This document shows positions 1,252 to 48,354 of a stretch of 64,000 bases of DNA, one piece after another. The notes beneath the pieces are model-generated. The model did not search any database. It worked only from the letters and a program-made list of their open reading frames with translations, and was not told the origin of the DNA. The stretch is from contig NC_089430.1 of the NCBI RefSeq assembly GCF_026210795.1, positions 3,162,001 through 3,226,000 of the forward strand. Direction: 5' to 3'. Each line of letters begins with the position of its first letter. The first letter of the stretch is position 1. Position numbers and translations under genes: made by a program. This DNA comes from Rhizophagus irregularis (taxonomy: Eukaryota; Glomeromycota; Glomeromycetes; Glomerales; Glomeraceae).

Positions 1252-1716
1252 CACAGGTCGAAAAGTGAAAAATCAGGCATCAATCAGTCACCAATCAGGC
1301 AGTTTGCTAACTTTTGATCCAGTGATCAGAAAAAAATGAAATATAGCTCATTGGAATCGTCTCAACAAGACGAATCTAATGGTAGTAAGATCATATTTTT
1401 AGGATTAATAGTTAATAAAATATTAAATAAAATATAAATGATACATTTTTATTTTTATATTTTACTTAATTTCTCATCAAGTATTAATCCTAGAAATGCG
1501 GTTTTACTACCATTAGATTCGTCTTGTTGAGAGATGATTCCAATGAGCTATATTTCATTTTTTTCTGATCACTGGATCAAAAGTTAGCAAACTGCCTGAT
1601 TGGTGACGGTATTTGGCGAAAATGCCAATCAGTCACCAATCGGTCACCAATCAGCTACCTGATTGGTGACCAATTGGTGACTGATTGATGCCTAATTTTT
1701 CACTTTTCGACCTGCG
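1252..1716. mobile_element. MITE family A, copy 1 (465 bp foldback)
   Basis: The left end reads CACAGGTCGAAAAGTGAAAA. The right end is its near-complement, ending TTTTCACTTTTCGACCTGCG. The arms extend more than 100 bp inward and are nearly self-complementary. Both flanks carry TAT, a candidate 3-bp TSD. Each arm contains the hairpin core (CATTGGAATCGTCTC ... AGACGAATCTAATGG) found in several other elements of this window. No ORF, so nonautonomous. Termini and 3-bp TSD resemble PIF/Harbinger MITEs; the superfamily is uncertain. Confidence 0.8.
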
Positions 1717-1835
1717 TATATTGTACAATGATCAAATACAAAAAAAAAAAAGAAAAATATAATTAAGTACTAAACTACTTATCATTTAATAAATAGACTC
1801 CACATATGCACTATTACATCAGTAAGATGAATACC

Positions 1836-2046
1836 AGTGGTGTAGGGTCAACCACCTGTGTGGTGTATGGTGATATTTAGCGGTGTGTAACAGTGTGTAA
1901 AATAAGGAATGTGAACTATACACAGGTGATTAATAGCATTTCGACCCACTCCAAATCACGTGTTTGGCCCGTCGTGTTATTTATCACCTGTATAAACTGT
2001 CACATAGGAGACCATACACTACACATCTTCTTGATCCTACACCACT
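1836..2046. mobile_element. Foldback MITE with AGTGGTGTAGG ends
   Basis: Left end AGTGGTGTAGGGTCAA is matched by the complement of the right end (TTGATCCTACACCACT). Inner words TGGTGTATGG and CACAGGTGATTAATA also recur inverted. More GC-rich than its surroundings. No ORF. TSD not resolved. Confidence 0.6.
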
Positions 2047-3920
2047 TATCTCCGTAGCATTCCTGTTACATATGCGCTAATTTATACCATAACCCTAAAT
2101 TTTTGAGATAACCCCAAATTTTTATAGCCAATAATAATGATGGTCAATCATCTGACACATTTAGTGTCAATGCTAATCACCAAAAGTTACTATGCAGTAT
2201 TTTTCAAATTTTCTGTTATTTATAATACTAAAGCGATCTGTTGCACAATTTTTTAACGCCAACTTTTTTATTTTACGCGTTTTACTGTATTTCAATGTCA
2301 AATTCTAAGCAAAGACCTTATGAGCAGGAAAACTATCCTGCTTCACCTGAAATAATATATTATGGTGACCAGAAATTTAGCTATACCGTTATTCAAGAAG
2401 GTGTTTACCCACTAATTGCATAATTGAAGTTTACAGAAGCGCCCAATTATTTTTCTGTACCTGACAATTATATTATTAAAACTACCTGGGGCCGGTCTAA
2501 TAACTGTCAAACTATTTAATGTTTCATATATTATATAGAAGGTAATCCACATTACTTAATTTGTTTTGGAAATAATTTTCAGCATCAAATTGTTTTAGTT
2601 CAATCTATATTTGATGCTTTCATTGAATTACATAATGTAAGTTTTAATTCAATTATATTTTTATTTTTTATATAAGCTCGCAAAGAAAATAATTTAATAT
2701 GTAATTATTTTATCAGATAATAATTTCAAATAAGAAAACTGCAGTTTCTGGAGTTCATCTCTATAGACTTCAATTAAAATGTATTGATAGAAATCGCAAA
2801 AGTAAACTATGGGCATTAAAACTTCATGATGAATCAAGTAAAACTACACAAATCAGATATGCTAAAGGCCTTGCAAAATGTGTACAAATAAACTTTAAAA
2901 ATTCAATTCAAGATTACTACAATCCTAAAGACCGCGTTGTTTTAAAGACATTGGAATTTACTGTACAAAATAAGGATTATTATATAACATTTGGAGAAAA
3001 AAACCCTAATAAACAAAACCAAAAATTGCAATCAGTGGTTTGTATACAAAAATATTCTATGTGATGTATATTGCTATTTTGCAGTTATGGAATTAAAATT
3101 ACCTCAGGAGTATGCTGTTTCTCAAACTCACCAAAAGATTGATGTACATATAGAACAATTAATACCAATTAATTTTGTTGACTTAACTCCAACTATTATA
3201 TCTAATTTTTCAGAAGAATCTGACATAACTGATCTGATAATTGTTGAGCAAGTTAACAGTGCAATTAGTAAAGATGCATATCAGAGTATTAAAAAAATTC
3301 TTAAATATATAATACCAGCATATATTCAAAATGAAAAATTAGATCCAACATCGCCAATTATTCATCTTCATATATCTGGTGATGGTCGTAACGTTAAACG
3401 AAAGGTAAAACACATTATGATCACTATAGCATTATTAGATGATTCAGCAAAACTTTTTGAGCCAAATTACCATTATACAGTTATTCTTTTCCAGAAACTG
3501 AAAATTATTCAACCTTAAAAATTGCAGCAGATACTTTTATTTGAGAATTGCAAGAGCTGAGCAGTATTAGAATGGTCATTAATAATATAGTTTGGAACTT
3601 TAAGCTTTATTTTAGCTTTGATTGGAAGTTTTTTGCCACCTACTTAGGTTTTAACGCTGCAAACTCCAATTATTTTTATCCATAGTGTGAGATAACTAAG
3701 AATCAATGTGAAGATAGGCAAACTGAATGGATAATTAGTAAAAAGATGAGTATTTTGAATGAAAATCCAAAAGCATATCCAAGTCATCACTCGCCTCCAC
3801 TTTTTAATATGATTCTACTTGACCATTATGTATTAAATAAACTCCATATTATGTTACGTATTACTGATTGTTTATAGGAATTAGTGCAAGAAATCAAAAA
3901 TAAGGAATTATTTAATGATA

Positions 3921-4096
3921 TACAGTCAACTCTTGTTATAACGAACCCTAAGTTCTAGACCTCAACTTTGCTATAGGGCTATAATGAAGATTTTAAGAGA
4001 TTTAATTAGTTAATTTGTTATAGTAAGGGGAAATTTATTATAGTTGTTTGAAAAATTCACTATATCAAGAGTTTGCTATATCAAGGTTTAACTGTA
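3921..4096. mobile_element. Pogo-like MITE (CAGTCAACTC termini) inside pseudogene
   Basis: Starts TA-CAGTCAACTCTTGTTATAAC and ends ATATCAAGGTTTAACTG-TA. The left end is related to those of the elements at 15137 and 46491. A TA at each edge fits Tc1/mariner-pogo target use. It interrupts the decayed DDE-like gene. Confidence 0.75.
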
Positions 4097-4167
4097 ACTT
4101 AAAATATTATAATTAAAGAGATGAAACCCTTATAAATCTGATTTGAATTTTGGAAAATTCGTAATAC

Positions 4168-4693
4168 TACATCAGGAAATTTGTTTAGGCGTAATTTAGT
4201 GTAATATTTCGAAGGTGGTGTAAAATTTCGAAATATTACACTAAAAACGTAATATTACAAAAGTTTACGCTCTTAAATTTGAATAATTATAGTAATTTAA
4301 GAATATCTCACTATCTACTGATCCAATCAAGACGATCTATAGCTCATTGGAATCAGCTCATCAAGACGAATCGAATGGTAGTAAAATCGTATCTTTACGT
4401 TCGATAGATGATTTTCTATTAATTTAAAACTTTACTGCATACTATAGAGCGTTCTATCAACTGTAGAAATGCGATTTTACTACCATTCGATCCGTCTTGA
4501 TGAGCTGATTCCAATGAGTTATAGATTGTCTTGATTGGATCAGTAGATAGCAAGATATTCTTAAATTACTATAATTATTCAAATTTAAGAGCGTAAACTT
4601 TTGTAATATTACGTTTTTAGTGTAATATTTCGAAATTTTACACCACCTTCAAAATATTACACTAAATTACGCCTAAACAAATTTCCTGATGTA
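4168..4693. mobile_element. MITE family B, 522-bp foldback with CATCAGG ends
   Basis: TA flanks both ends. Left arm TA-CATCAGGAAATTTGTTTAGG is mirrored on the right (CCTAAACAAATTTCCTGATG-TA). The arms stay nearly complementary for about 230 bp, so a single strand would form one long hairpin. Near the loop each arm carries the core CATTGGAATCAGCTCATCAA followed by GACGAATCGAATGGTAGTAA, shared with elements that have unrelated ends. No ORF. It splits the decayed gene of 2241-5145 between its HIMLRI and LYDFLGEKE parts. Confidence 0.9.
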
Positions 4694-7032
4694 ATAATTA
4701 GTATTATACTTCCCTTAAGCTTTGTGTTTTTCAAAAATTTAATTTGGCTAAGCTTTTTGATCCAGAATGTGCTGCATTAATTAAAAGCTTATGAAATGGA
4801 TTTGCTGAATTGTATGACTTTTTGGGAGAAAAAGAAACAAATCCACACTATTTTCGCTTAAAAGCAAAAGAATGGTATGAGTTATTTTTAAAAAAAACTG
4901 TGGTGAATCCTGAAACTAATCATATTATTTTAGTACAAGGACTTTACCGATCTTCAGATTTAACTCCTTATATTTATGTCTTAGTGTCGCATATTTGGAA
5001 ATTTATACTTAAATTCTTTTTCGTGCAGTGCTGTTGAAAAAAAAAATCATAATCATGTTTCTTACTTTTTTCGTAAAACTCTTAAGAATGGTAGAAAGTT
5101 TCAAAATAAAACTTCAGCTATTTGAGAGATTATGGAACATGAAAATTAGCTTTTTTTTTATACTCAAAATAATATTTTTCTTTTATATCCTAAACCTCAA
5201 TATATTCATATTTTATAGATTTTAATATTTTATATAGAATATTTTTGTAAATATATTAATATTTTTTGGCAATTATTGTGATAAAAAAAAAAATATTGTG
5301 TATTTATTTATAAATCAGTGTGACAAAATTTGCATCACTCTATAATAAGTTTAAATTTATTTTTGTCATTGTACTTAGAGATTTTGTTCAGATCACCCCT
5401 GATGATTTCATTAAACGTCATCTTAATAATGTAATCACATGATTTGCATAAACTTTTATTAGACTTTCATAATTTTTTCCCACGATTGGTTTTCCTTTTC
5501 CCTTTTGTTTCAAATATTTTTTTTAATAACTCTTTTCGTCTTTAATAACATTAAAATAAGTAAGTAAAGCTGATTTGTTTCTTTAATTTTTTTTTTCATT
5601 ATTTTATAAATATTAATGTTTCTAACATTTCTGATAAATTTTTTAGTCTAAATGTTTAATTATTTTTATATGAAAAATGTGTGATTTTAATAATGAATAT
5701 GAAACCAACATTGAATACAATTATCTTAATAACCAGAATGAGACTTCTGAAGAGTCATCTGTCCAACAAACTCTCCCTCCTCGTGTTGGAATTTCTAAGG
5801 GACGATCACTTGAAAAATTGATTATACCTGATAGTGCTTTTGACCAGGCTTCTAAATTAAGTGTTGGAATGCAATTTGAAAACTGGAACCATGCTAATTT
5901 AGTATTATTGGCTTATGGACAACAGATTGGCTTTGTATGGAGGATTCAAGATAAATACTTAGATAAAAATGGAGGTGTATATAAGTATGTATTTGAATGT
6001 AGACACGCGGAAATATTCAAATCAAAAAAAACAGCAACAGATCCTTCAAAACAACGCAATAGGGAATCAATCAAAACTGGCTGTACTTGTTTTATAAATA
6101 TGTGCTGGCCACTTAAGTCACAATGTCCTTCGATTACCAAGATGAATCTCACACATGATGGACATTCACTTAATCCAGAAATGATTCAATTTGCTAATGT
6201 TTATCGACAAATTCCTCAAGATATAATGAATAAAATTGAATTTTATGTGAATACAATTCATGGGATTAATCAACACACGTTAAGGCAACTTCTTCAAGGT
6301 GAATTTAAGGATCACCTTTTTCTTGATAGAGATTTGGCCAATGCTATTCAACAATTCTGAAGAAATCATATAAATTCTGAACAGGATCCTGAGAATGATG
6401 CTTCTAATCTTTTTAAAGAGTTACAAAAAATGAAGGAAGATGATCCTACATGGTTCATAACTTATCAATGTGTTAAGAATCGTCTTTTTCATCTATTCTG
6501 GATGAGCCCTCATCAACAAACTCTTTATCTAAGGCATCATGACGTTATTTTGACAGATAATACAGCACGAACCAATAAGTATCATTTATTATTGTGTTTG
6601 TTTGTAGGTGTTGATGAACATCGCCATTCAAGAGTAATAGCTCAGGCATTAATGTCTGATGAAACTACTTCATCATATATGTGGGTTCTTAATAATTTTT
6701 TAGCAGCAACAAATTATTTAGCACCAAGAACAATTTTTTCCGATTGTGATACTGGATTAGAACCAGCTATAGAATCTGTTTTTCCAACAACATGATATTT
6801 ACATTGTATCTTTCATATAGCTTTGAATATTAAAAAGAATCTAATGCGCTTACTTGGTTCCCAATTCACTGCATTTAAAAATGATTTTTTTATTTGCCGC
6901 AATACATTATTTGAAGAAATTTTCGAAACATGATTTATTTCTTTATGTACGAACTTTCCAGAAGCTGCACCATATTTGAAAAATGTTTTATATCCAATTA
7001 AGAAACGCTGGGCTAAATGTTTTACTTTTAAG

Positions 7033-7248
7033 GTAAATATTTATCATAAAATCTGAGTTGCGTTAGAATTAGGGTTAGGGTTATGGTTAGGGTTAGATTA
7101 GGGTTAGGGTTAGATTAGGGTTAGGGTTAGATTAGGGTTAGGATTAAGATGGGTTAGATTAGGTTCAGATTAGGGTTAGGGTTAGGTTAGGGTTGGTTAG
7201 TTTAGGTCAAAAAATAGTATTAATTGAATTTTTTATCAATATTTGTAG
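7033..7248 (+). repeat. Telomere-like TTAGGG array inside a MULE intron
   Basis: The intron starts GTAAATA and ends TTTGTAG. Most of it (about 7062-7200) is a degenerate array of TTAGGG with variants such as TTAGATTAGGG and TTATGG. The flanking exons join in frame (KRWAKCFTFK then EFNAGMFSTQRV), as expected for MULEs, so the array is intronic and not a chromosome end. Confidence 0.9.
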
Positions 7249-8390
7249 GAGTTTAATGCTGGAATGTTTTCTACTCAACGCGTAGAATCTATCAATGCTA
7301 TTATTCATAAATTTATGAATTCACATTCAACTTTATTAAAATGCTTCAATGGATTACAGGAAATGTTAGCTTCAGAACTTCAAAAAGCTGAATATCGAGA
7401 TTATTTAGCCAATTTGCCTTTTATTATTGCTTCTTCTTCAGCAATTCGTGTCTTTCCAAAATTGGTTGAGAATTTAAGAAGTGTTTTAACTGATGAAGTT
7501 TTTTCTATCCAAAAGACTCAAATTGATGTTTGTTTTGAATACTATTCAAAATTAATTCCTTCTGATCAATACCATATGTATAATAATGTAAGTTTATATA
7601 TTTTTTTGTTTAGTAAAATATTTTTATTATCCATTTGGTATTAATATTGAATTTTTTTTTAATTAAAGATTAATGATTTTGATACTTCTGTTTGTCTTGA
7701 AGATTGCACAGATAAATGTCAAATTGCACTTAAGTCTCTAATTAGTGACGTAAATCTTACTAATGTTATAGAAATTTGGGAAGTTAAACACATGGCAGTT
7801 AATACAACGTCAGTAAATTACGTGGCATTATTTCAAGATCATTCTCATATTTGTACATGTTTACTTTTGACTAGTGAAGGTTTGGTTTGCCACCACTTTT
7901 TTCAAGTGATGTTACGAACACAAAAAGCACAGTTTACATTTAATTTGTTAAAGAGTCGGTGGTATAAAAAAGGTGTTGATCTACAGAAAATCAATGCTTT
8001 AGATAAATCCGCTAACTTTGTGATTGATACTGGGAGTGAAAGTTCATTAACTTTTATATGTGAAATTCATATTAATGAAGAAGATCTCTTAAGCAATAAT
8101 TCTGAAGTTGAACATTTTATCAATAAACGTCAGATTTATGGAGAATGTGCAGCATTAGGACGAAAGTTAGCATCCTTAGCATCTGAATTCAACTTAGCAC
8201 ATATTGCAGCTACATTACGAGGTTTAATTCAAGAAGTGAAACTATCTAATAATCCTGTTAATAAGCAAGATCAAGAAATGATTCGTAATCCATTGCAAGT
8301 TAATGCAAAAGGAAGGCCTGCTAAAAGATTGAAATCTTCTGGGGAAAATTCTATGGGCAATAGATCTATTAATCGTTCTGGTGATGGATA

Positions 8391-8956: not shown

Positions 8957-9408
8957 CATGTCGCAATTGTCTTAAAGATGGCCATAATTCACGAAGCTGC
9001 AGTGCACCATGTAAAATTTGTAAGGAATCTGGACATAATTATTTACGTTGTCCAAACAAGGAGAATGTATAATTAACTTGTATTATTACTGCAAAAATTC
9101 TTTATTAATTAGTTACATTGTTAATCATATCTTTATTAATCATGTACAAATTTCTTGTAAATTAATATTAATTAATTGATTGTAATAATTATTTGCGATA
9201 TTTTAATAAAAATATATATGAATACATGATTTATATACTGCGCCAAACGAGGATGGTATTTTAAGAAATCATCGGGGATGGTGGATAAAATTACTCTTGT
9301 ACTTAAAATATATTTAGAAATCAATTTTTATTTATTATATATATATACGTGTGATAAAAAATTTTAATAAATTTTTCTACTAATAAAACAAAACAATTAA
9401 ATATCTAT

Positions 9409-10016: not shown

Positions 10017-10017
10017 A

Positions 10018-10441
10018 TATACATGAAGTCGAAATTAAAGTCCAAAAGTAGAAATATTTCGACTTGGGAAGGTCAAAAGTCGAAATTAAAGTCAAAATAG
10101 TTGAAATTACATTATAGTCATGTGATTTTTATAATTATAATTTAATATAAAATTTTAACTGTAAATAACTCCGTCAATATTGATGCTACAAATATAAAAT
10201 ATATATCATTAGAATCCTCTCAATGAGCTGAATCCAACCGTATAAAGATCATAAAAATTGAATCACTGGATGCGGAGTTCATTCATTAACTTTGAATTTT
10301 AATATCATTGTTTACTATAAAATCATATGACTATGATGTAATTTTGACTATTTCAATTTTTGGAGGGGTTCAAGTCAAAATCATTTTGACCATTTTGACC
10401 ATTTCAGAGGTCAAAATTAACCAATTTTGGTTTCATGTATA
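10018..10441. mobile_element. Family C element with ATACATGAA ends, copy 1
   Basis: The left end TATACATGAAG is mirrored by TTCATGTATA on the right, and GTCAAAA/AAAATTA motifs recur inverted inside. The same sequence recurs at 39721-40528. It carries the shared words AATAACTCCGTCAATATTGA and ATCATTAGAATCCTCTCAAT. It separates a minus-strand gene fragment from a plus-strand one. TSD unclear here. Confidence 0.75.
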
Positions 10442-11209: not shown

Positions 11210-11698
11210 CACAAGTCAAAAAGTGAAAAATCAGATATCAATTAGTCACGAATCAGGCAGTTTGCTAACTTTTGATTCAGTGATTGGAAAAGGATAAAAT
11301 ATAGCTTATTGGAATCGTCTCAATAAGACGAATCTAATAGTAGTAAAATTGCATTTTTAAGATTAATAGTTAATAAAAAATTAAATAAAATATAAATGAT
11401 ATATTTTTATTTTTATATTTTACTTAATTTCTCATCATCAAGTATTAATCCTAGAAATGCAATTTTACTACTATTAGATTCGTCTATTCCAATAAGCTAT
11501 ATTTTATCCTTTTCTGATTACTGAATCAAAAGTTAATAAACTGCCTGATTGGTGACGATATTTGGTGAAAATGCCAATCAGTCATCAATTAGTCACCAAT
11601 TAGTTACCAATCAGCTACCTGATTAGTGACCGATTGGTGACTGATTGGTAACCAATTGGTGACTAATTGATACCCGATTTTTCACTTTTTGACTTGTG
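11210..11698. mobile_element. MITE family A, copy 2 (489 bp)
   Basis: Same structure as 1252-1716: left end CACAAGTCAAAAAGTGAAAA, right end TTTTCACTTTTTGACTTGTG, flanked by TTT on both sides. Both arms hold the hairpin core. It is older than copy 1, with more substitutions and a truncated core in the right arm (about 11478-11500). Confidence 0.8.
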
Positions 11699-12710: not shown

Positions 12711-14170
12711 ACTATATAATAGATCTGAGATTTATTGTAAATGAATATATATTTTAATAATAAGATTTGTTAATATTCTTAAATCTGCATATATTCTTGA
12801 ATTTACAATCATTAAAATCATCAAAATATAATCTAGCAGTCTTATTTTTAATATATTTTTTTATAAAATTAAAAATATTTAATTGTAAATATTTTTAAAT
12901 ACTATATAATATATGTTGATCATAAATGACATTTAAAGAAAAATGACAATTATTGGCTATCATAATTGACTTATTTTTGTATATCTCTCATACTTTTTAA
13001 TCCATTTCATTATATAAAAAATATAGTTTTTTATTAATCTTAAAATTTCTTGGTTGTTCATCGTAATTGAAAATAGCTGTTTTATCAATAACTGATATGA
13101 CTAACTTGTGATCTAACTTGTTATTGAATAATATCATATATATTAACTTAAAATATTCCAAATGGTTGATAATATTTCTAGAAAATAATTCTAAAAAGAA
13201 ATACTTTTTATATTTGTATGCAACACCAGTAATAATATAGTGATAAGCAATATTATAATCTTTTAGTATTTGTTTAATGTTAACTTAATCTATTTTTTGC
13301 AATATATATTGTATAATATCATATTTTTTATTAATTCATCTGGCTGCATATTAAGATAAACACTAAAAATGCAAATTCTAAGGGATTGCATAGGATCCCA
13401 AATAATATTAATACAACTCATAAATAAACTTTAAATACCAAAGTAAAAATACATTTTATGATATAATTCCATCAATATTAAAATTAGAAATGCGATTTTA
13501 CTATCATTAGAATCCTTTTATTGAGATTTGAGATGATCTAATGATATAAATTTTATTAAAATCAAATCACTAGTTATGTTAAAAAACAGGAGTATGTAAG
13601 ATGATGAAATTTTGAAAATACCTTTATAATACACAACTTTTGAAAAATTTTAATATCAAATTCAAATATGAGTTGTATTAGTATTGTTAATAATTTTATT
13701 GATAATCACAAATTTTCAGAATTATTTAATTTTAAATATGAAACATTAATAATAACCAATCTTTTTCACAATAGCAGATAGTATTTTTTAGTGAAAACAC
13801 AATAACAGACAACTCCTCCATCACAATTTACATAATCTTTAATGATTCAAAACTCTTATTATTTAGCCCAATCATTTATAAAAACTTTGCAATCTTCACA
13901 TAATTCCATAATTGAAATTTCTTTTTTGAATATAATAGTACATACCCATCCTTATTAGATAAGATTGCTTCATCATAAATATCATTATAATTATCTACAA
14001 AAAAACTGTAATAAAATAAAAAGAAGGGTTATAAATAATTGCATTTATTCTAATCCTTAACTCTAAGATTCAAAGTATATTTGCAGGTAGATAGGATGTT
14101 TATTTAAAATAGATTTAATTTTTGTAATTTTTCCTTTAAATAAGGAACCTTTGAGTATAATAAAAAAAGA
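12711..14170. other. A+T-rich intergenic DNA with one core-repeat fragment
   Basis: No coding signal. At about 13458-13570 lies an eroded copy of the shared MITE core (TAATTCCATCAATATTAAAA, then GAAATGCGATTTTACTATCA and TTAGAATCC). Its host element ends are no longer visible. The rest shows no structure. Confidence 0.4.
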
Positions 14171-15136: not shown

Positions 15137-16254
15137 TACAGTCAACTCCTTCTATAGTCACTCCCGTTATAGTCACATTCTACTATATAGTCACACCAGT
15201 TGAATGTTCAAAACACTTTATTATTAAAAACTATCCTATATAGTCACAATCTATCTATAGTCACTATCACACCTATCCTCAAAAATCTTATATTAAAAAG
15301 AACCGTTTATAATTACAGTTATACAGTATAAAGAATATATTAAATAACTTGGCATCTAATAATCGTACAAAGATGTATCATAGCTTGTTAGAATCGTCTC
15401 ACTGAGATGAATCGAATGGATGTAGTTTTATCCTTTTGCGATCACTGGCTGATGAGTTATTCAACAAAATGTTAAGCATCGGCATTATTATATTTCTTGA
15501 TTTACGTTTACTGCGCCATTTAACATTTTGCTAAATTTCTCGGTACCTAGTGATTGTAAAAAGACGATTAATAGCTCGTTGGAATCGCCTCATCGAGACG
15601 AATCGAATGGTGGTAAGCTCATCTCTCTGTGATCAATATTGACGGAGTTATTAATTAAAAACCATTTAATATTTTTTAATTTCGGAAATTGATCTAGTGA
15701 TTGGATTTCGATGTATCTTATACCATTAGATTCGTCTCATCAAGACGAATCGAATGGTAGTAAGATCGTCTTTCTAGGATCAATATTAGCAGAGTTATTA
15801 CACAAAAACCATTAATATTTTTTTAATTTCGGAAATTAATATAGTGATTGGATTTCGATGTATTTTATACCATTAGAACCGTCTCATCAAGACGAATCGA
15901 ATGGCGGTAAGAACGTCTCTCTAAGATCAATATTGGCGGAGTTATTACACAAAAACCATTAATATTTTTTTTAATTTCGGAAATTAATCTAGTGATTGGA
16001 TTTCGATGTATTTTATACCATTAGAACCGTCTCATCAAGACGAATCGAATGGCAGTAAGATCATCTCTCTATGATTAATATTGGCGGAGTTAAGATACAA
16101 TAAAGTTTTGAGTATAATTTTGGCTAAAATTATGTTAATTTTTGGCCAGAATTATGATATACTAATATAAGAAATTTTTTATATAGTCACATCTCTTTAT
16201 AATCACCAAATATGGACTGTCCCAAATGTGTGACTATAAAGAGAGTTGACTGTA
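15137..16254. mobile_element. Pogo-like nonautonomous element, copy 1 (intact reference copy)
   Basis: TA at both edges. Left terminus CAGTCAACTCCTTCTATAGT, right terminus the complement of CAGTCAACTCTCTTTATAGT. The subterminal word TATAGTCAC recurs many times. The interior holds tandem 147-bp repeats of the shared core. No ORF above 60 aa. The family TIR (CAGTYRACTC with TA) is that of pogo/Tigger-type Tc1-mariner elements. It lacks the insertions seen in copy 2 (46491-57289) and so serves as the empty-site reference for them. Confidence 0.85.
15589..16085. repeat. 147-bp tandem repeat, 3.4 copies
   Basis: Unit starts (CTCATCRAGACGAATCGAAT) fall at 15589, 15736, 15883 and 16031, so the period is 147-148 bp. 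Each unit contains GATCAATATTGRCGGAGTTA, TTTAATTTCGGAAATT and GATTGGATTTCGATGTAT. Copy 2 of the host element has one unit fewer (starts at 47738, 47885, 48032). Confidence 0.9.
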
Positions 16255-17079: not shown

Positions 17080-20000
17080 AATTTTCACCTTTTAACTAAT
17101 AGTTTTTTTCTGTTCGCTATATTGGATCCCTCATATTAAAACTAAAAATTAACGAACTCATTAATTAAATTCTTCTTCGCATATGACATTATAACCAAAA
17201 CCAAAAATTATCAATTCTTACCATAATAAGCATAAAAAAGGCCATTGAACGTTCGTTAAATCTTCTCGCCATGAATGGAAACAACATTGTTAGCACTAGA
17301 TGGAATAATTGCCGGACTTTATGCTTGGAAACCTTAAAGGGCAATTCTATTCTTGGTTAGACAAAAGTGGAATTAGAGCTGATAATTGTCCAAAAGAATT
17401 GGTTGATTAGTTAAAAAAAGTGATTGCTTTATTCTTGGGCATGAGCGGCTTTATTTTTTATCAAATATAATGAAAATAGCGATTTTTATCTAATAATTGA
17501 GAGTTCACTAATTAAAATTCTTCACTCACGTTATTATAAATAGATCACGTCTGCTCCCAACATGATAAACATAATAAGAAGTCACCTTTCTTTTTTGAAC
17601 GTACGGATAAACTCCTAAATCGCCTACCAATCCATTTTTTGTCCAATATGATTAATAATAAATTTTTTGATATGAATCACGTTATAATTTGATAATAGGT
17701 TTTACCTTAATAAATTACGGGAATAAAGATCAGCGAATTTGTTTTCATATGAAATTGCAACTAAATTAAGACAAAAATATCAACCCTCACCATAAAAAGC
17801 ATAATTGTTCGGATTCTTGAGTAACTCCTCGTATCATACGAGTTATTTTATCCAATAAGACATAAACAATGATATCATCATTCCTTTTAAGTATTTCACT
17901 TACGACCCAGATCACTTGATAAAGAATATTAAAAATATTATATAAACTCCCACCAAATAAACATAAATAAAGGCATCTTTTTCACTTGAGAGTTCGTTAA
18001 TCTGATAGTCGTGAACCAAATTTCACCTTTAACTAAACGACATGGAGTATTTTAACAGTGAGTCCTCCTCACTCACTAAATCAAGTTAGAAAGATCAACT
18101 CCCACCCTGATAAATATATCACTTTTTTTGAACGGTCGATAAATCTGATCGTCATAAATTGCCTACAATTTAATTTTTGTATGTGAACGATAAATTATTT
18201 TTAAAAATATAAGTATATTTTTAAAATGTTCTACACAGATCCCTTGATATTAAACGAATATTAAAAGATATTATAAATAACATCCAAGACAAAAATATAA
18301 ACTCTCACCAAATAAACATAAATAAGAGGCATCTTTTCTCTTGAGAGTTCGTTAAATCTGATCGTCATAAACCAATTTCACCTTTAACTAAACGACATTG
18401 AGCATTTTAACAGTGAGTCCTCTTCACTCACTAAATTAAGTTAGAAAGACCATGATAAATATCACTTTTTTTTGAACGTTCGATAAATTTGATCGTCATG
18501 AAAAAAATTCTCACCTCTAAATTGCCCACAATTTAATATTTGTATGTGAACGATAATCCCTTATAAATTATTGTTAAGAATATAAATATACTTAAATGTT
18601 CTACGTTCTACACAGATCTCTTGATATTAAACGAATATTAAAAGATATTATAAATAACACCCAAGACAAAAATATAAACTCTCACCAAATAAACATAAAT
18701 AAGAGGCATCTTTTCTCTTGAGAGTTCGTTAAATCTGATCGTCATGAACCAATTTCACCTTTAACTAAACGACATTGAGCATTTTAACAGTGAGTCCTCT
18801 TCACTCACTAAATTAAGTTAGAAAGATCAACTCCCACCATGATAAATATCACTTTTTTTTGAACGTTCGATAAATTTGATCGTCATGAAAAAAAATTCTC
18901 ACCTCTAAATTGCTGAATTATGATTTTTTGATGTGAATGATCATCCCATTTTTAAAAATATAAATAAATATTAGCGAATCCTACTAAAATTGATCGTCAA
19001 CAAGCCTTTAACTAAAAGAGACAGTTTCAAATATGAAGAAGTGATATAATTTCCCTTAATAAAAACGTATTAAAAATATAAAGGATTAGTTAATTCATTA
19101 ATTAAATTATTCGCATATGACATTAAATTAAATCAAGACAAAAATGTCAACTCTTACCATAAGAAGCATAATAAAGGTCCTTTGAACTCTGTTACTCATG
19201 AACCAAATTTCATCCTTGTTTTTGTCCAACCCCACCCATAATATTTATGATGCAATAAGACGTAATTAATGATCCTTTATAAAAATAGGATAAATTTGAT
19301 CACCTTTAACTAAAAATGACTGAGATTATGTTTTGTTTGATATAATGAAATATTATAATGATCCTATACGATTACCTTGATAAAGATAAAAAGGATCAAC
19401 TAATAAAAATCCGCCATTTCTTTTGAAATTTGATCATCAAAGAACAAAATTCACCTTTAATTAATGACTTACATTTTATTTTTGGTCAAATATGATGAGA
19501 ATATATAAAAAATTATAATTTTTTCGGTATGAGAACCCTTGAAAAAGTATACTAAAAAAAAGATGATTGAATTCATTAGCCAATATTCCTCATTTAAGAC
19601 GTTGTAACTAAAAAAAATATTAACTCATCATAATAATAAAATAAAGGATCATCTTACTGAAAACAAAAAATTTTTAAAAAAAGTAATGCCTGACATGAAT
19701 CCCTTTTATAGATTATTGTAAAAAATATAAAATTTTTCATTTACGACATCATAACAAAAACACATTGTAAATTTGAACATCATAAATTTTCTCTTTTTTA
19801 CCTTTAACTAAATTGCTTACAGTTTATTTTTTTTTGTCCAATATGATAAGATAAGACAGAAAATTATAAATTCTTGATACAAATCCCTTGATAAAATATT
19901 TTAAAATCTAAAGATCAATAAATTCATTAGTTAAAAATTCCTCGCTTTTGACATTTATGATAAAAATATCGATTCCTTACCATGTTAATCATAATAAAAG

Positions 20001-36604: not shown

Positions 36605-37854
36605 AAAGTTCTAAATGATCCAGATTGATATCCGGGTTGGAGAGTAACCTGGGATTGGACTGAAAAATTAGTTCATTTTGGTCCAGTTCGGTTTATATTA
36701 AAAGGAGAATCTGGGACCAGACTGAACCGAACCAGTTATTTTAATCCAGTCTAGTCTGGTCCTATAATAAAAAATGTTGCGAAAACGTTTTTTTAATTAT
36801 AATTACTTAGAAAAAATGTTTTGCAAACATTTTTTTATAATAATATATTAAAAAAATGTTATGCAACATTTTTTTGTTAAGTTAATTAAAAAATGGTGCG
36901 CAAACGTTTTTTTTAATTAAATATACCAAGAAAAAACGTTTTACAACGTTTTTTTAATTAAATATATTAAGAAAAAACGTTTTGCAACGTTTTTTTCGTT
37001 AAGTTAATTAAAAAAATATTGCACAAACATTTTTTTAATTAAATATACTAAGAAAAAACGTTTCGCAACATTTTTTCTTTAAATTAATTAAAAAAACATT
37101 GCGCAAACATTTTTTTATAATAATATATTAAAAAAACATTACGCAACGTTTTTTCGTTAAGTTAATTAAAAAAATGTTGCGCAAACGTTTTTTATAATAA
37201 TATATTAAAAAAATGTTACGCAACATTTTTTTGTTAAGTTAATTAAAAAAATGTTGCGCAAATATTTTTTTATAATAATATATTAAAAAAACATTACGCA
37301 ACGTTTTTTCGTTAAGTTAATTAACAAAATGTTGCACAAACGTTTTTTTTAATTAAATATACTAAGAAAAAACATTTCGCAACATTTTTCTTTAAATTAA
37401 TTAAAAAAACGTTGCACAAACATTTTTTTATAATAATATATTAAAAAACATTACGCAACATTTTTTCGTTAAGTTAATTAAAAAAACATTGCGCAAACGT
37501 TTTTTTTAATTAAATATACTAAGAAAAAATGTTTCACAACGTTTTTTCTTTAAATTAATTAAAAAAATGTTGTGCAAACGTTTTTTTTATAATAATATGT
37601 TAAAAAAAACATTATACAACGTTTTTTATTTAATAATTAAATAATCGCAATGGTTTTAATATAAACTATTGCGAAAATATTTATCAGTTCAGTCTGGTCC
37701 CAACCCGTTTAATTCAGTCCAGGTTAGATTTATAATCTGAAACTGGACTGGACCGGACCGAATATTTTGGTCCAGATTGAAGCATCAACTCAGACTGGAC
37801 CAATCCGAATTTCAGTCCAGGTTGTCAGATTAGGACCAACCCGATTAGAGCTTT
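36605..37854. mobile_element. 1.25-kb foldback with tandem AACGTT-hairpin core
   Basis: The ends pair AAAGTTCTAA (left) with TTAGAGCTTT (right). Subterminal arms pair GGTCCAGTYYRGT- and CCAGGTTGG-type words on the two sides. The centre (36766-37640) is an array described separately. Copies of a ~32-bp unit (ACGTAAATAAACTATTGATA...) lie on both outer flanks (about 36525-36600 and 37856-37895), so it inserted in a small tandem repeat. No ORF. Confidence 0.7.
36766..37640. repeat. ~76-bp tandem array of short A-GCGCAA-T palindromes, ~11 units
   Basis: Each unit has AAAAAATGTTGCGCAAACGT TTTTTT, an A/T spacer with ATATACTAAG or AATATATTAA, and AAAAAACGTTTCGCAACGTT TTTT, then GTTAAGTTAATTAA. Every half-unit is itself a palindrome of the type A6-YGTT-GCGC-AAYG-T6. 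Confidence 0.85.
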
Positions 37855-39394: not shown

Positions 39395-39589
39395 ACTACC
39401 AGTTATACATACCACCCAAATTATTTTGGACTGCCGTAATTATAAGTAAAATCCCAAATTCAATTATGGCATCCCAAATTATTTTGGCACTTTACATAGT
39501 AAATTATATATAAACCGAATGAATTATGGCATCACAAATTATAATTATGGTATCCCAAAATAATTTGGGCAGCATGTATACTACCAGTT
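39395..39589. mobile_element. 175-bp MULE-type MITE with perfect 10-bp TSD
   Basis: ACTACCAGTT occurs at 39395-39404 and 39580-39589. Between them the ends are inverted: left ATACATACCACCCAAATTAT, right the complement of ATACATGCTGCCCAAATTAT. The motif CCCAAATTATTTTGG recurs inside. A TSD of this length points to the Mutator superfamily. Confidence 0.85.
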
Positions 39590-39720
39590 GTTATTAATTA
39601 GTACACATATTTGATCTTGAGCCTTTTTTTCCATTCTGTAACATTTTGATAATATGAGATTTTCATCTTTTAAGTTTTCAGGTTGTATTGAATCCAATTC
39701 AAATGAAGTATCACCAAGCT

Positions 39721-40528
39721 ATACATGAAGTTAAAATTAAAGCCCAAAAGTAGAAATATTTCGACTTGGGAAGGTCAAAAGTCGAAATTAAAGTTAAAAT
39801 GGTTGAAATTACATCATAGTCATGTGATTTTTATAGTTATAATTTAATATAAAATTTTAAACATGAATAACTTCGTTAAATTTTAAAAAATAAAAATAAA
39901 AATAACTTCGTTAAATAAACACTTGATTAACAGATGTCTTTTTATTGTCTGAGCCTTTATCAGTAGCGTAGTTTTACTGTTAGAGTAGTGTAGCCCAGAG
40001 AGTGAGGTCCTTTAAACATGATGTTAGATTTAGTTTACGGGGTTTTTAACCACAGCACTCTTAATTGTATAGTTATTCACTAGTAATAGTTGTTTACTTC
40101 TTTTATATACTTGTCATTGGTTACTCCTTTCTAAAATAAAATAAATAAGAATAACTCTGTTAATATTGATGCTACAGATACAAAATATATCATTAGAATC
40201 CTCTCGATGAGTTGAATCTAACTGCATAAAGATCATAAAAATCGAATCACTGGATGTGAAGTTCGATAACTTTGAATTTTAATATTATTGTTTACTATAA
40301 AATCATATAACTATAATATAACACAGGTCGAAAAGTGAAAAATCAGGCATCAGTCACCAATCAGTCACCAATCAGTCACCAATCAGTTACCGATTGGTGC
40401 CGTATTTTTCACTTTTTGACCTGTGTAATTTTGACCATTTTGACTTTTAGAGAGGCCCAAGTCAAAATCATTTCAACCATTTTGACCATTTTGAAGGTCA
40501 AAATTAACCAATTTCAGTTTCATGTATA
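39721..40528. mobile_element. Family C element, copy 2, with ~270-bp extra insert and nested MITE
   Basis: Matches 10018-10441 from ATACATGAAGT to TTTCATGTATA. The flanks CACCAAGCT and CACTAAGCT are a 9-bp TSD with one mismatch. Two differences from copy 1: an extra segment at about 39870-40145 of unknown origin, flanked by AATAACTTCGTTAA/AATAACTCTGTTAA, and the 104-bp family A MITE at 40322-40425. The ATACAT tip and 9-10-bp TSD are shared with the 39405 element. Confidence 0.75.
40322..40425. mobile_element. MITE family A, copy 3: minimal 104-bp form with TAA TSD
   Basis: Ends CACAGGTCGAAAAGTGAAAA and TTTTTCACTTTTTGACCTGTG with only CAATCAGTCAC-type repeats between; the hairpin core of copies 1 and 2 is absent. 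TAA flanks both sides. The equivalent site in copy 1 of the host element (10339-10341) has a single TAA, which directly confirms insertion and TSD. Confidence 0.95.
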
Positions 40529-41495: not shown

Positions 41496-42128
41496 TTATT
41501 CTGCTACCATTCTAGTATTCATTAAAGTTTTGATAAATTTCCTTAAGTTGTATTTAATAGGGATCTGTTTGAAAATTGGAAAAAATTTGACTTTCCTATT
41601 ACTATAGTTAAATCTGTTGTTAAAGTAACATCTGTTGTTACTTGTGTTCTTAGTTAATTTGTCTACCATTTCATTCATAACATCTCTCCTGTGTCCCTTA
41701 ACTTTCACTAATACTAGCTTCATCTTTTTTTCTTGTAAAAGAATATTTATCTTAAGTAAGATTAAAGAATTAGACTGCTTCAGTAGTTTTCTACCTGATT
41801 TGTTATGTTTATTATTAATCATGTAGATGGCGCTTTGACTGTCTGTATATATCTTAATTTTTACATTCATAGGATTTGTGAGTAATGCCAGAAAAATAGC
41901 CACTAATTCTGAATGTGTAGATGAAGACCATAATGATAAATTTGCTTGGGCAGATAAGGCAGGTTTGTCATTGACACAGAACGTCGCACCCATTTTTATA
42001 TACACTAAATTGGGATATTGTTTATCTCTTGATGTAGGGATGCTTGGCCTGAGTGAACCATCTGTGTAATATTCTACCATTGTTCTCTCTGCTAATACAT
42101 TTTTAATATCCATGAGTTTTGATTTCAA
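41496..42128 (-). pseudogene. RNase H domain fragment of the decayed LINE
   Basis: 210 open codons. The acidic catalytic set is visible: YYTDGSLRP (Asp), STHSELVAIFLALL (Glu), IYTDSQSAIYMI (Asp) and KVKGHRRDVMNEMVDKLTK (His...Asp). This is a type-I RNase H as carried C-terminal to RT in I/Tad-type LINEs. Open only because it is the best-preserved piece; no independent start is implied. Confidence 0.8.
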
Positions 42129-43422
42129 GTTATCATCATCTATCCATTTATAAATCCATATGTTCTGAACTAGTGGTAGGCTAATTATGAGACTTGGAGC
42201 TGATGTTAGTAACCTATCTCTGGGTAATAAAATGTTAAGATGATGAGTTGAAGATAATCATTCACCAGGAAAATTCCAACCACGCGAATTAGAGTCTCTA
42301 TCTAAAATTGCCCTCTTACAGCAGAGAGTCAGTATGGTTTGTCCAGTGTTCTGCCATCCAATTGTTCCATTTTCATTGTATCCTGGATGGTAATTCACAG
42401 AAATCCTATGTGTGTGATGATGTATTTTGTTAACTTTGCCAATTAACCATTCATTTGAATTAGCCAAAAACTCTTGAATAAAAATGACTTGTTTGTGGCG
42501 TACATTTGGTATAATATCTAGTAGAAAGGTCTAATGGTTAACTTTCACAAGCTCCAGATTATTCCTTACTGTTAAATTGTCTGTTTTTGATGTGCACAAA
42601 TGGGTCACATCACGATACTATCTAGCTACCCTTCTTTATACCAGGAATAGTGCTAAGCTACAGTATTGTTTCCATATCATTATATATGTATCCCTAATAA
42701 ATAATTGATCAATATAAAATATTGGGTAATGTGAGCTTTGGTTAATCCTATATATATATTTCGTAAGCTGATATTGTTTAAAAAACTTTAATATCAGCTC
42801 TTTTCCTCCTGATACACTTCAAGTTGATCTATCAATTGGGTCTTTCGTCATTGATATGTTAAGAGATTTAGCTATTACCAATGTGTTGAATGAGACATTT
42901 TTCTGGGCTTAAAGTTTTATCCAAGATATTGCGTAAAGATTACAGTCAAAAATTGAATCAACAATGAGTGATTTAAGCTGTGCATCTCTAAATCTAATCT
43001 GTGTAGCTACCACTGTACATGAGTCACTATTTAATCTAATCATTAAATCTGTTATAATATTGATATGATGGATTTTTCATAGGTAATCTATACCTAAACA
43101 CCCTTATGAAATAATAGAGACAAAGGTGTATTTTTGAATAATTTTATCCAGTTTTTAACCAATTTCATTATGGGAGTGAACACTTGATTCCAGTTATGTT
43201 CTGACAATGTCATGATTTGGGCTATATATATCAGTCTAGGAATCAATACTCTATTGATTAGGTAAATACATTGTCCAGCTGGAACAAATTTCCTACGAAC
43301 TGTATCACAAAAGCTTTTGACTGTTTTGGACAAATGTTGTATTCATTATCGTTTACTCAGTTTGTTGGAAAACCATACTTCAAGGTATCTTATTTTATCA
43401 TTTGTGGCTTGAATTATAGAAT

Positions 43423-43954
43423 AGGAATTGCAACGGTCACGGTCATTAACCGGTTATGACCGGTTATAACCAGTTATGACTGTGACTGATATCAGTCAGT
43501 CAAAGGCCTCTGACCAACCGTTTGACTGACCGGTCTGACTGACCGTTTAACTGATTCTGAAAACATTTGTAAAACGTTTTTTAATATGAAATTTAATAAA
43601 AAAATGTTTTGCAAACATTTTTTTAATTATTTTAATAGAAAACGTTGCGAAAATGTTTTTTATTAAGTATTTCATAAAAAAAAAAGGTTTTGTAAACGTT
43701 TTTAATTGATTTAACAAAAAAACGTTGCAAAAATGTAATCTAATAAAAAAAATGTTTCACAACATTTTTAAATAGAAATAAAAATTAAATTTAATAAAAA
43801 GTTTTCGCAAACTTTTTTTTAACCAAAAATATTGCGAAAGTGGTCAGTGGTCAAATCGGTCAAATGGTCAATCAAACAGTCAGTCGGTCGGTCAAAAGTT
43901 CTTGACCGGTTATGATCGACCGATGACCGACTATGACCGACCGTTGCCATCCCT
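43423..43954. mobile_element. 532-bp foldback in the decayed LINE (GGCAACGGTC ends, AACGTT core)
   Basis: Left AGGAATTGCAACGGTCACGG; right, complementary, CCGACCGTTGCCATCCCT. Arms are rich in GGTCA/TGACC words, e.g. ACCGGTTATGACCGG and GACCGGTTATGATCG. The centre repeats AAAAATGTTTTGCAAACATT-type palindromes like those at 36766-37640. It separates the RT catalytic box from the thumb fragment. TSD unclear. Confidence 0.75.
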
Positions 43955-44445
43955 AATCATGAACTAGTCTGATAGTTTGTTCATGCCTTTCCACTAATGG
44001 GTTGATAATTATCAATTCTGACTTTTTAGTGTTGATATCAATATTATTAATCAAATAGAATTAATTTGCTATATCTACTATCTTTTGCATCCTGGATTTT
44101 GATGATTCTAAAAATACCATATCATCCATATATGCATATACCAGAACCTGAAGCCTGTATTATGTTTATGTGGTAGGGTCATTAATATTGTTTGGCCAGG
44201 TAACTTTCATTTCATATTCACTGTCTTTAGATTGTTGTATTCCTACTAGAAGTGGATCATAGAAAATTCGCCATAGCAATGGAGAGAGTGCATTACTCTG
44301 ATCTATTCTGTCATTTCCAATAAACCCATTACTTAACCCATACGCTGTGGATATTTCAAGGGATCTGTGTTTGAAAAGGGCTATTATTCATTCAACAGAA
44401 CGTCAATATGAAACAAGGCTCGATTTAGAACCTCTAATTCAACTG

Positions 44446-45315
44446 GGACGCATTTATTTCACCAAAAATTGTTTCACCGATAATCAACTTACCGACAGTC
44501 ATTTTACTGACAGGGTCGTTTTACCTACAGTTGTTTTACCAACGATCATTTCACCGATAAGATTATTTTACCGACAGAATCATTTCACTGATAACTAAAA
44601 ATATCAGTAAAAAATACAAAAAAAAATAGCATTATAAAACAATTTATTTATTTATTTTATTTTATTTTATGGATACTAGTAACTTCAGTTTGTTCAAACC
44701 AATATGGAGCGGACTCTTACTAGAAAAAAGAAAAAAGAAAAAAACTATTCAGGGCTCCGACCAAGCCTGAATAGATAAGGTTCAGAATAATCTAGTAGTA
44801 GGTTGTGACAACGATTTGTAAAAAACTACTATACATAAAACAATCACATAAATGATCCGTATTTTTCTTTCAATCCTAATGGTTGCCATCTGTAAATACT
44901 GTCAGAAGTGGAGTGGTTCACTCTATTCTAAATTGTTAAAAGGTTTAATGTAATCTACTATAAAAAGTATAAAATGACTCCTATGGATGAAATATAAAAA
45001 ATATTACGTTAATAATGAAATATCTAAAAAAAAAATAAACATGATTAACCATTATTAATCCTTATTGCTAGAACCAGACTCCCCATTTTTTACAATAAAA
45101 AACTATTGAATATTAAATTAATAATTGTGGTTATGTTATCAGTTATTAAATTACGGTAAAAGATTAAAATTCAGTAAAATGATTTTCGGTGATATGATTT
45201 TTGGTGAAATAACCCTGTCAGTGAAATGATTTTATCGGTGAAATAATTTTCAGTGAAATGACTGTCGGTAAGTTGATTGTCGGTGAAATAATTTTTGGTG
45301 AAATATACCGAACTC
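44446..45315. mobile_element. 870-bp foldback with TTTCACCGA arrays and 10-bp TSD
   Basis: AATTCAACTG lies at 44436-44445 and 45316-45325. Both arms (44446-44600, 45170-45315) are built from variants of TTTCACCGA and TTTTACCGACAG: ATTTCACCAAAAATTRTTTC, ACCGAYAATCAACTTACCGA. The right arm is the complement of the left. It splits the LINE reverse transcriptase between AFDSVEL and EVLNRAL. TSD size suggests the Mutator superfamily. No ORF inside. Confidence 0.85.
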
Positions 45316-46788
45316 AATTCAACTGAATCAAATGCCTTCTTCATATCCTGTGTGAGGACCTATAGTTCTTTTTTATTTTCTCTGGCATTCTCAATAAAAT
45401 TATTAACCAGATGTATTAGTTCGTTTGTACGTTTTCTAGGTAAACCGCAACAATTGTATCCCTGTAGTATATTATATTTTTTTAAAACTAAACTCAACCT
45501 GTACGTAATTATCTTTGTGAAGGTTTTCTGAAAGCAGTCCAGTAATGCAATAGGTCGAGTATTTAAAATATTATATTCAAAGTTAGTGGGCTTAGGGATG
45601 GAAAGAATAATCGATGTTTTCCATGCCATAGGTATTAGTCCAGTTTGTAATGTTAGATTCCCGAACTTGACTAAAAAGTGGACTAATTCTTCAGATAATT
45701 ATAGGATGATTTGTAGTTAATACCAGATAACCCTGCAGCTGACTTTTTATTTAAATCTTTAACAGTATTGTTCTATTTTTTCATAGTAATCTTTTCTATT
45801 GTGGCTTCTATTACTTCTTTAAATTAACCTGCAGGTTTGTAAATTTGTTGCCAGAGCGACGTCAAAGAATTCTGAAGTGTATTTCTTTTCCTAAATATGC
45901 TCGCAAAATCATTGTCTACTGCTTTCTTAATCTCTCCTAAATCTGTAACCAGTCTCTTAGTCGAACTTCCTAATTTTTTGTTTACTAACACCTTATCTAT
46001 AACTATATTAGTGTAAGTGTTTTTATCTAATATACTAAACAGCTATGTTGTTTGATCTTTTTGTGTAATTTCAACTCTTTTATTTATTTTATTTTTAATG
46101 GATTTTGTTTCTGTTGCTTTGTATTTTTTATAATCTGCTCTTAGGCGATAATTCACTTTTTTTTTAAGATTGTCAAACCAATTTTCTGAAAACATATTAT
46201 ATATGACTATATTACACTTGTTATAATCATCGGTCGATGTAACATAGTCTTGATTATATTTGGCAATTTTTCTAGTCCATCTGGATTTGGCATCCGCAGT
46301 AGCGGTCATTTGTTAATTGCCATAATAATAATTATGTAATAATTTAAGCAACTCATTTGTATGTTGTTCTGGTCTCATCTTTTTCTTGTTATAATGTCGA
46401 GGGGTGAGGGGAATCCAACTGAATGTTACACAATATGATTTTAGGTTAACGCAACTGTCCATTTAAGGTTACACTGATCACATTTATTATTACAGTCAAC
46501 TCCCTCTATAGTCACTCCCGTTATAGTCACATTCTACTATATAGTCACACCAGTTGAATGTTCAAAACACTTTATTATTAAAATCTATCCTATATAGTCA
46601 CAATCTATCTATAGTCACTATCACACCTATCCTCAAAAATCTTATATTAAAAAGAACCATTTATAATCACAGTTATATAAAGAATATATTAAATAACTTG
46701 GTATCTAATAATCGTACAAAGATGTGTCATAGCTTGTTAGAATCGTCTCACTGAGACGAATCGAATGGTGGTAGTTTTATCCTTTTCC

Positions 46789-47573
46789 TTTGCTAATGTT
46801 TACGGCCAGACCACCCATTGCCTCTTATGAGACTAATCTTGGGTCTGTGTCCTATCATCTTCAATGGGCAACCATTATACCGAGTACTTAATTCCTCAGG
46901 TAACAGCACCACTATAGAAGACATACATCCCCCATCGGGCCATTATAGGCTGATCTGAAGCTAGGTACACGCCGCCTACTCATCCTATACCCATTGCATG
47001 ATACTGATACTCAATTTATTTAACGACCTTTAGAGAGCATCTACTTTCATGGAGGACTTTCGACAGGTAACATCAACCATCTAGTACCCTTCCATACCAC
47101 CATTTTAGGTACTAAGCCTCACTCAAAGGCCACTACAGCCCGCGATTACCTAGCACCGATAGTACAGTTGTTTACCCCAAGTGGTATACTTTGTAGTGAC
47201 CACTCGGACAGGAAGTAGCAGGCTTCTGTCCAGGATCACCCCTTATGGTGGGTATCAACCACCAGGGATCACCAACCAGGACCCAAGAAGTGCGGGAATC
47301 GAACCCCATAACCATGCTACCTGTTCTGCGCACGAACACCTTGGTTGGTCTAAGACCTAACAGAAGGTCAAACTACCACTAAGACATTGCACCCTCAGCT
47401 TTACCATCTAGGACAACCATCTAGCTATTACTGACCCCAAGTGGTATCGTGGAGTGACCACCTGAACAGGAAGTCCCCCAAGGTATAGTAGTGACCTCAA
47501 GGACAGGACTGCGCACATACCAATGGCCTCATAGGGAACGTTAGAAGGACACCATGACCCTTAGTTGAAATGA
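46789..47573 (-). mobile_element. SINE-like noncoding retroelement, copy A, 15-bp TSD
   Basis: GTTTTATCCTTTTCC at 46774-46788 and 47574-47588 is the TSD; copy 1 of the host element has this site once (near 15424). The insert is the reverse complement of 56384-57000, starts internally relative to copy B (5'-truncated), and diverges at its 3' end. More GC-rich than its surroundings and without ORFs. Pol III box-like words lie on the minus strand: a B box GGTTCGATTCC at 47295-47305 and an A-box-like TTAGTGGTAG at 47373-47382. Truncation, TSD and boxes suggest LINE-mobilised SINE behaviour. Confidence 0.75.
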
Positions 47574-48354
47574 GTTTTATCCTTTTCCGATCACTGGCTG
47601 ACGAGTTATTCGACAAAATGTTAAACATCGGCATTATAATATTTCTTAATTTATGTTTACTGCGCCATTTAACATTTTGCTAGATTTCTCAGTACCTAGT
47701 GATTGTAAAAAGACGATTAATAGCTCTTTGGAATCGCCTCATCGAGACGAATCGAATGGTGGTAAGCTCATCTCTCTGTGATCAATATTGACGGAGTTAT
47801 TACTTAAAAACCATTTAATATTTTTTAATTTCGGAAATTGATCTAGTGATTGGATTTCGATGTATCTTATACCATTAGATTCGTCTCATCAAGAAGAATC
47901 GAATGGTAGTAAGATCGTCTTTCTAGGATCAATATTGACAGAGTTATTACACAAAAACTATTAATATTTTTTTAATTTCGGAAATTAATCTAGTGATTGG
48001 ATTTCGACGTATTTTATACCATTAGAACCGTCTCATCAAGACGAATCGAATGGCGGTAAGATCATCTCTCTACGATTAATATTGGCGAAGTTACGATACA
48101 ATAAAGTTTTAAGTATAATTCTGGCTAAAATTATGTTAATTTTTGGCCGGAATTATGATATACAAATATAAGAAATTTTTTATATAGTCACATCTCTTTA
48201 TAATCACCAAATATGGAGGATCATCGCAACTCTTTCCTGAATTTTTGAAAATACTAATAAAATTTATTTTTGAAATTTTCGTTCGAAAATTTCTAAGTGC
48301 TCGTTCTAAATACTATATTTCTTCAGTTGCTTTCCTCTTTACTGAGCTTCTACT

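Follow-up and report, generated by a model that had tools for sequence, protein, structure and literature searches.

The window analysed here, a stretch of 64,000 bp from the genome of Rhizophagus irregularis (positions 3,162,001 to 3,226,000 of contig NC_089430.1, G000:C2:3162001-3226000 in our numbering; parent genome of 146,748,485 bases in 32 contigs), has a G+C content of 28% and harbors several families of miniature inverted-repeat transposable elements (MITEs) with one interior unit in common. An earlier note on this DNA had reported a palindromic core shared by MITEs with different ends. The core proved to be the middle of a 115-bp imperfect palindrome, here called module M, with ends TAACTCSG...CSGAGTTA in the aligned family consensus sequences, and the sharing is real and larger than reported: a profile of M detected 18 copies in the window, every one within a MITE-like element (four in host family A, two in B, two in C, one in D, and five and four in two copies of host T, with the better strand kept at each place), while 1761 core matches were obtained genome-wide.

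Copy 1 of host A (1252-1716, +) has the ends CACAGG...CCTGYG, a 3-bp target duplication TAT and an inverted pair of modules, the left one at 1308-1422 (+; profile hit 1309-1414, alignment row A1L, 13-7-13 core at 1349-1381) and the right one at 1470-1586 (-), which carries a 2-bp insertion and was recovered by both profile and alignment. Host B (4170-4691, +; CATCAGG...CCTGATG, TA duplication) holds modules at 4304-4418 (+) and 4443-4557 (-), both supported by profile and alignment, as is the single central module (10166-10280, -) of host C copy 1 (10018-10441, -), which has the terminal inverted repeat (TIR) TATACATGAA and belongs to a family whose 8-bp duplication is seen in other copies. 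Copy 2 of host A (11210-11698, +) is flanked by the duplication TTT, with modules at 11267-11372 (+) and 11435-11534 (-). The supposed lone relic forms the middle of host D (13392-13697, -, right end approximate; M hit 13467-13576, -), a separate MITE family: the query 13450-13573 gave at least 40 genomic matches (40 scored of 282 candidates), and 20 fetched copies define the family. Host T copy 1 (15139-16252, +; TIR CAGTCAAC, TA duplication) contains five modules, namely Ta (15345-15459, +), Tc (15536-15650, +) and three Tb modules about 147 bp apart (15683-16092, +; hits 15690-15797, 15841-15944 and 15986-16092). Host C copy 2 (39720-40528, -; M hit 40152-40263, -) is interrupted at about 39883-40149 and at 40322-40425, the latter being a 104-bp MITE with A-type ends and a TAA duplication, devoid of M. 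Host T copy 2 (46493-48217, +) has lost its 3′ end, with profile hits at 46695-46788, 47686-47799, 47839-47946 and 47987-48093. It is interrupted at about 46787-47569 by a GC-richer insertion with a flanking duplication of about 14 bp (GTTTTATCCTTTTC) and a B-box-like GGGGTTCGATTCCC, which resembles a tRNA-derived short interspersed nuclear element and has a second copy, 90% alike, at 56382-56918 (reverse).

With up to three mismatches allowed, the window contains 11, 14 and 9 occurrences of the three words originally reported, against mean counts of 0.00, 0.00 and 0.01 in dinucleotide shuffles, and the right-half core gave 890 + 871 matches genome-wide at up to two mismatches, with none for the reversed control. 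The core is palindromic as had been claimed, but it is only the centre of a longer palindrome, since both strands match the profile along most of M at many places; likewise, GATCAATATTGRCGGAGTTA, which had been read as a separate word nearby, is the right end of M. At the centre lie two inverted 13-bp half-sites, GACGAWTCNAATG, with a 7-bp spacer between them (the 13-7-13 dyad, 33 bp), and a spacer of roughly 70 bp, called S, often adjoins M. The length of the module is nearly fixed: 115 columns are free of gaps in 24 of the 27 aligned rows (the exceptions being A1R with two extra bases, E3 with one fewer and G1 shifted by five), and indels are almost nil among 13 representatives whose mean pairwise divergence reaches 0.369. 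Zero net length change was observed in 364 of 388 profile hits, though the profile is local and, having been made from gap-free consensus rows, leans towards hits without gaps, and the figure of 388 overstates the number of independent copies, since some genomic copies are represented by several overlapping loci (L009-L038). M retains no reading frame, any one frame being stop-free in at most eight of the 27 rows. Sixteen loci fetched with the left-end pattern included two (L161 and L162) without M, and another of them, L156 (G000:C8:616450-617250), has only the left 42 positions of M, as a truncated relic or a chance match.

In all, M is common to at least eight host families (A to G and T counted), whose target duplications and TIRs were read by eye from the sequence flanking the copies. 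The 3-bp duplication of host A was found in 9/9 copies and the TA duplication of host B in 5/6, the B copy of the window being 98-99% identical to the best 39 other copies listed. An exact 8-bp duplication was present in 8/12 copies of host C, and in one of the ten listed copies of host D (L045; ends AGGACCCCGAA), the others being eroded. Non-autonomous elements of the pogo/Tigger type have a TIR starting with CAG and a TA duplication, and host T is a candidate member of this type, with TA duplicated in 11 of the 12 correctly anchored copies. Host F, known from one copy, is a 1663-bp foldback with Tc1-like ends CAGTGGCTTACAAAA and a TA duplication, while host E consists of M arrays with a 182-bp period in inverted arms, within a larger repeat that extends past the fetched sequence. 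Further contexts are G (L152, L164), J (L153), H (L154, related to F) and K (L018, L022), the last with an inverted M pair. As had been stated in the earlier note, the hosts thus differ in termini and target size, with 3 bp in A, TA in B, T and F, and 8 bp in C and D, and the core is not the TIR of any one superfamily, for the ends are unrelated and the host arms share little. When M was masked, the hosts shared mainly S pieces (E, J and T2) together with the T/T2 and F/H pairs, to which were added some short matches and, next to J, an insertion of the A type. Each of the contexts F, G, H and J rests on one or two loci, so their flanks were assigned partly to themselves. Hosts A, B, C, D and T are short, multicopy elements with TIRs and target duplications (clear in A, B, C and T, exact in a single copy in D) and without transposase, and they are MITEs of different superfamily type which share one core. 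Helentrons and their non-autonomous HINE derivatives have no target duplication, subterminal inverted repeats and a 3′ palindrome, and such an identity was rejected for these hosts by the target duplications and TIRs of A, B, C, T and F.

Within the hosts, M is repeated at characteristic distances. Start-to-start spacings of 147 and 191 bp were observed in T, 190 bp in C, 182 bp in E, 181-182 bp in J, 184 bp in F and 147-150 bp in G, while the inverted pairs of A and B are spaced at 161-165 and 139 bp, respectively. The arrays of C reach five modules (L082), and seven left-end matches of M, 190 bp apart, were found at C25:1140194-1141353; these tandem-expanded C elements (L082, L083 and G000:C25:1140194-1141353), with a 190-bp unit, are a second independent case of M arrays. 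The spacer of E and F is partly palindromic, which allows an array to be viewed as a series of monomers of about 91 bp in alternating orientation.

The evolutionary tree constructed for 74 M sequences placed most hosts in one group each, while T needs three origins and T2 two. The three origins of T are forced by well-supported branches, with Ta grouping with E and J (99/95), Tb with C, D and G (100/98), and Tc apart, so that host T holds more than one lineage. The PHI test for recombination gave p = 0.001 on 14 representatives, p = 0.002 when the core was left out and only the arms were used, p = 0.002 for the arms without J, and p = 0.006 without E, J, Ta and T2a; in recombination-free simulations with matched site rates, p ≤ 0.01 was reached in 0/60 and p ≤ 0.05 in 3/60. 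Of 2088 ordered triplets scanned, which are not independent of one another, 122 reached p ≤ 0.005, where about 10 were expected, and most of the switch points fell at positions 40-59 or 90-109. Module Tc is T2b-like on the left and Tb- or D1-like on the right, with a switch near 86-98 (p = 0.0005), and E2 is Ta- or J1-like on the left and Tb-like on the right, with a switch at 49-58 (p = 0.0005). Module J looks as though its left arm had served as template for its right one, the two being paired along almost their whole length (z -16).

The explanation in which we place moderate confidence is that M is an old palindromic unit which was laterally captured by many MITE lineages and afterwards exchanged among them by recombination. 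M itself is probably the relic of a TA-target mini-transposon with the inverted ends TAACTCSG...CSGAGTTA. Non-autonomous DNA transposons of several superfamily types would have taken it up as their interior, where it may have multiplied as inverted pairs (A, B, F and K) or as tandem units (of 147 bp in T, 190 bp in C and 182 bp in E); recombination or palindrome-templated copying between the modules of different families could then have swapped arms and left host T with modules of distinct lineages. The hosts' own ends would drive movement, with M as a passenger. Of the three origins offered earlier, a passenger swapped between MITEs is thus the best supported, by the mixed lineages of T and the mosaic modules; its sharing is observed directly, and its exchange is suggested by the mosaic signal. 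Several observations weigh against this explanation. The tree rests on 115 columns and has many weak forks, and the PHI signal resides in the right half (p = 0.001) and not in the left alone (p = 0.20), which indicates that exchange is not focused on the core only. Copying of one arm from the other within a palindrome could mimic part of the mosaic signal, although the signal is still significant without E, J, Ta and T2a. The loci were sampled by M patterns, so the M contexts are biased and form no unbiased census, and 20 random 4-kb stretches contained a single M, within a T fragment. No standalone M was recognised among the 388 hits, six of them unassigned, and the empty junctions of hosts A (26 letters) and C (30 letters) gave no match at up to three mismatches, these queries being guessed joins that a differing join would escape. 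With neither a standalone M nor an empty host found, no insertion of M and no free copy that could have been its source has been observed, and in this partial sampling M showed neither standalone copies with a target duplication nor empty sites, as would mark a transposon in its own right. A search for an autonomous element with M-like ends led to T copies at all 20 fetched places (from 1024 matches and 100 places listed, chosen partly for having no exact core match nearby).

The same negatives touch on plain nesting, in which M as a TA-target mini-transposon entered the centre of each host a single time, followed by duplication in place and no exchange between hosts. The same outer ends of M recur in most hosts, the M pair of host A is flanked by GCAGTTTGC-TA...TA-GCAAACTGC, the pattern expected from a TA duplication at the centre of a palindrome, and A-type ends also occur without M, in the 104-bp element at 40322-40425. 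Nevertheless, the empty A and C junctions and the standalone copies expected under it did not appear, the ends of M are degenerate in A (right) and B, and neither the several lineages within T nor the mosaic structure of M agrees with a single insertion per host; we regard nesting without exchange as possible but rather unlikely, while an older element buried in all the hosts, as had been proposed, may well be the origin of M. It is scarcely credible that the hosts all arose by deletion from one autonomous element with varying ends, the outcome that would have made the sharing simple descent. A shared interior is often found in deletion derivatives, but three target-size classes (3 bp, TA and 8 bp) with unrelated ends and host arms that share little argue otherwise, although autonomous partners were not found. 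The flanks of ten pogo-type open reading frame loci, which carry TIRs similar but not identical to those of T, contained T ends in no case, and no M except at one locus nested in a T copy. The T copy at that locus (L143/L144, G000:C28:3125550-3128700) encloses a pogo-type element that has a transposase match and is bounded by perfect TIRs of 31 bp (TTATACAGTCGACTCTGG...).

Across families, the core halves have mean pairwise divergences of 0.227 and 0.152, compared with 0.467 for the 5-bp loop and 0.37-0.46 for the arms and ends of M; within families the results are mixed. Expressed for the dyad, variation is 0.118 in the half-sites, 0.245 in the spacer and 0.286 in the rest (Mann-Whitney p = 3.4e-5, half-sites versus rest), and the dyad position ranks 2 of 115 circular shifts for half-site conservation. 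In 26 distinct T copies, the Ta core showed 3/702 non-CpG changes against 74/2028 in the rest of Ta (p = 4.5e-7) and 55/1820 in the spacer, a difference that becomes weak with CpG sites included (17/858 versus 83/2132, p = 0.009), and the Tc core is no more conserved than the rest of its module (p = 0.37). The A core is better conserved than the host arms (p = 6.7e-5, a biased fetch) but not than the rest of its module (p = 0.12), the C core better than the rest of its module (p = 0.014) but not than the host arms (p = 0.21), and the D core better than the host arms (p = 0.01), its value of 0.086 being not below that of the rest of the module (0.067); the B copies are too similar for such a comparison. 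These values must be read with the sampling in mind, for an inner query retrieved the A copies, and core or end patterns retrieved many of the T copies, which inflates core conservation there, whereas Ta is free of this bias. A count of copies without gaps was set aside as circular, those copies having been selected by their spacing. One protein, fungal or belonging to another element, might bind the 13-7-13 dyad through its GACGAWTCNAATG half-sites and favour the MITEs that carry it. The half-sites being the least variable part of M, the Ta result, obtained with search patterns not aimed at Ta, and the smaller number of indels per aligned base in M than in the host arms of A, C and D are consistent with such a selected site; the weakness of the Ta difference once CpG sites are counted, the behaviour of Tc, C (against its host arms) and D, and the absence of a known protein speak against it, and we consider it unlikely. 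The CENP-B box is a 17-bp motif with NTTCGNNNNANNCGGGN, and it was tried and rejected as a candidate, the best matches in M having 9-11/17 letters, equalled by at least 30 of 200 shuffles in each of 14 modules.

Selection for a hairpin, with M kept as a folding transcript or single strand, for example as a source of small RNA, appears very unlikely. Seven of ten modules do fold better than shuffles at z ≤ -2.2 (J -16, E -9 and F -7.7), the palindrome register pairs 66% of cells compared with 33-43% when slid, and the paired cells and covariation score together are reached by only 4/500 shuffles, with weak stem covariation. However, the folding of B (z 0.06) and Tc (z -0.04) is on a par with that of shuffles and the advantage of Ta is weak (z -1.4), and all three belong to families that have multiplied nonetheless; changes on both sides of a pair number 26 against 25.9 in shuffles, a stem mismatch at columns 49/69 is retained in 23/27 rows, and the 17 window matches to Rfam 15 at E ≤ 5 all lie under the gathering score. 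A stable fold in all members and compensatory changes, which a conserved RNA hairpin should have, were thus not observed in M. Because two modules do not surpass shuffles in folding, both-side changes show no excess and the stem mismatch is kept, sequence-specific half-sites fit better than a folded strand, so that of the earlier proposal of a selected hairpin or binding site, the hairpin is weakened and a putative binding site is the better fit. The core sites of tyrosine recombinases are laid out as two inverted half-sites with a short spacer between them, and the 33-bp dyad, judged by its layout, is a candidate recombination site at which a trans-acting recombinase or domesticated transposase might swap, invert or multiply the interiors of unrelated MITEs. 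This is a distinctly doubtful proposal, but if it holds, recombination at the dyad would make M a cassette market shared by MITEs.

The nearest precedent for the capture and exchange of M, in the parts of the published accounts that were compared, is the satellite-like core of oyster Helentrons, and the new part is the sharing across transposon classes. The Cg_HINE elements of Crassostrea gigas carry satellite-like arrays at the centre of several non-autonomous elements, each composed of its own flanks and a set of central repeats, as here, and recombination and cut-and-replace are discussed for them (PMC7492417); unlike these elements, all of which are Helentrons without target duplications, the hosts of M have TIRs and duplicate 3 bp, TA or 8 bp of their target, and a single repeat family runs across them. 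The pearl/DTC84 MITEs of bivalves are also modular, with short internal arrays and repeats related between elements and satellites, and DTC84 has a conserved palindrome near the repeat junction that recalls M (PMC5139131), whereas M is a 115-bp palindrome in several TIR classes of a fungal genome, where no satellite array was seen. The Tetris foldback of Drosophila virilis has internal tandem repeats of roughly 220 bp in inverted arms, like host E, but it shares its ends with the MITE DAIBAM (PMC4079207), while the hosts of M share their interior and differ in their ends. In root-knot nematode satellites, a short conserved motif within diverged repeats, proposed to promote rearrangement, bears a likeness to the dyad; that motif is CENP-B-box-like at 10-12/17 letters (PMC3694981), whereas the match in M is not above shuffles and its carriers are MITEs. 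One repeat crossing several TIR classes was not found in the compared parts of the oyster, bivalve, Tetris and nematode accounts, and a literature search on titles and abstract openings, mostly of non-subscription sources, returned no description of M. The interiors of MITEs are usually taken as leftovers of a parent element, yet here one interior unit is common to several TIR classes, is constant in length despite about 37% divergence and has a dyad better conserved than its surroundings, which raises the question of what binds, or is exchanged at, the dyad. If the exchange is confirmed, interiors cannot be used to trace MITE families. Part of the repeats of R. irregularis remain unclassified (PMC11075540), and M may help to sort some of them.

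Two other repetitive stretches were observed in the window. A unit of roughly 80 bp is arrayed at 36763-37645, where direct as well as inverted self-matches are numerous, with a related stretch 6 kb off at 43559-43830, and a pair of direct repeats with 86-91% similarity, about 355 bp apart, lies at 17940-18947.

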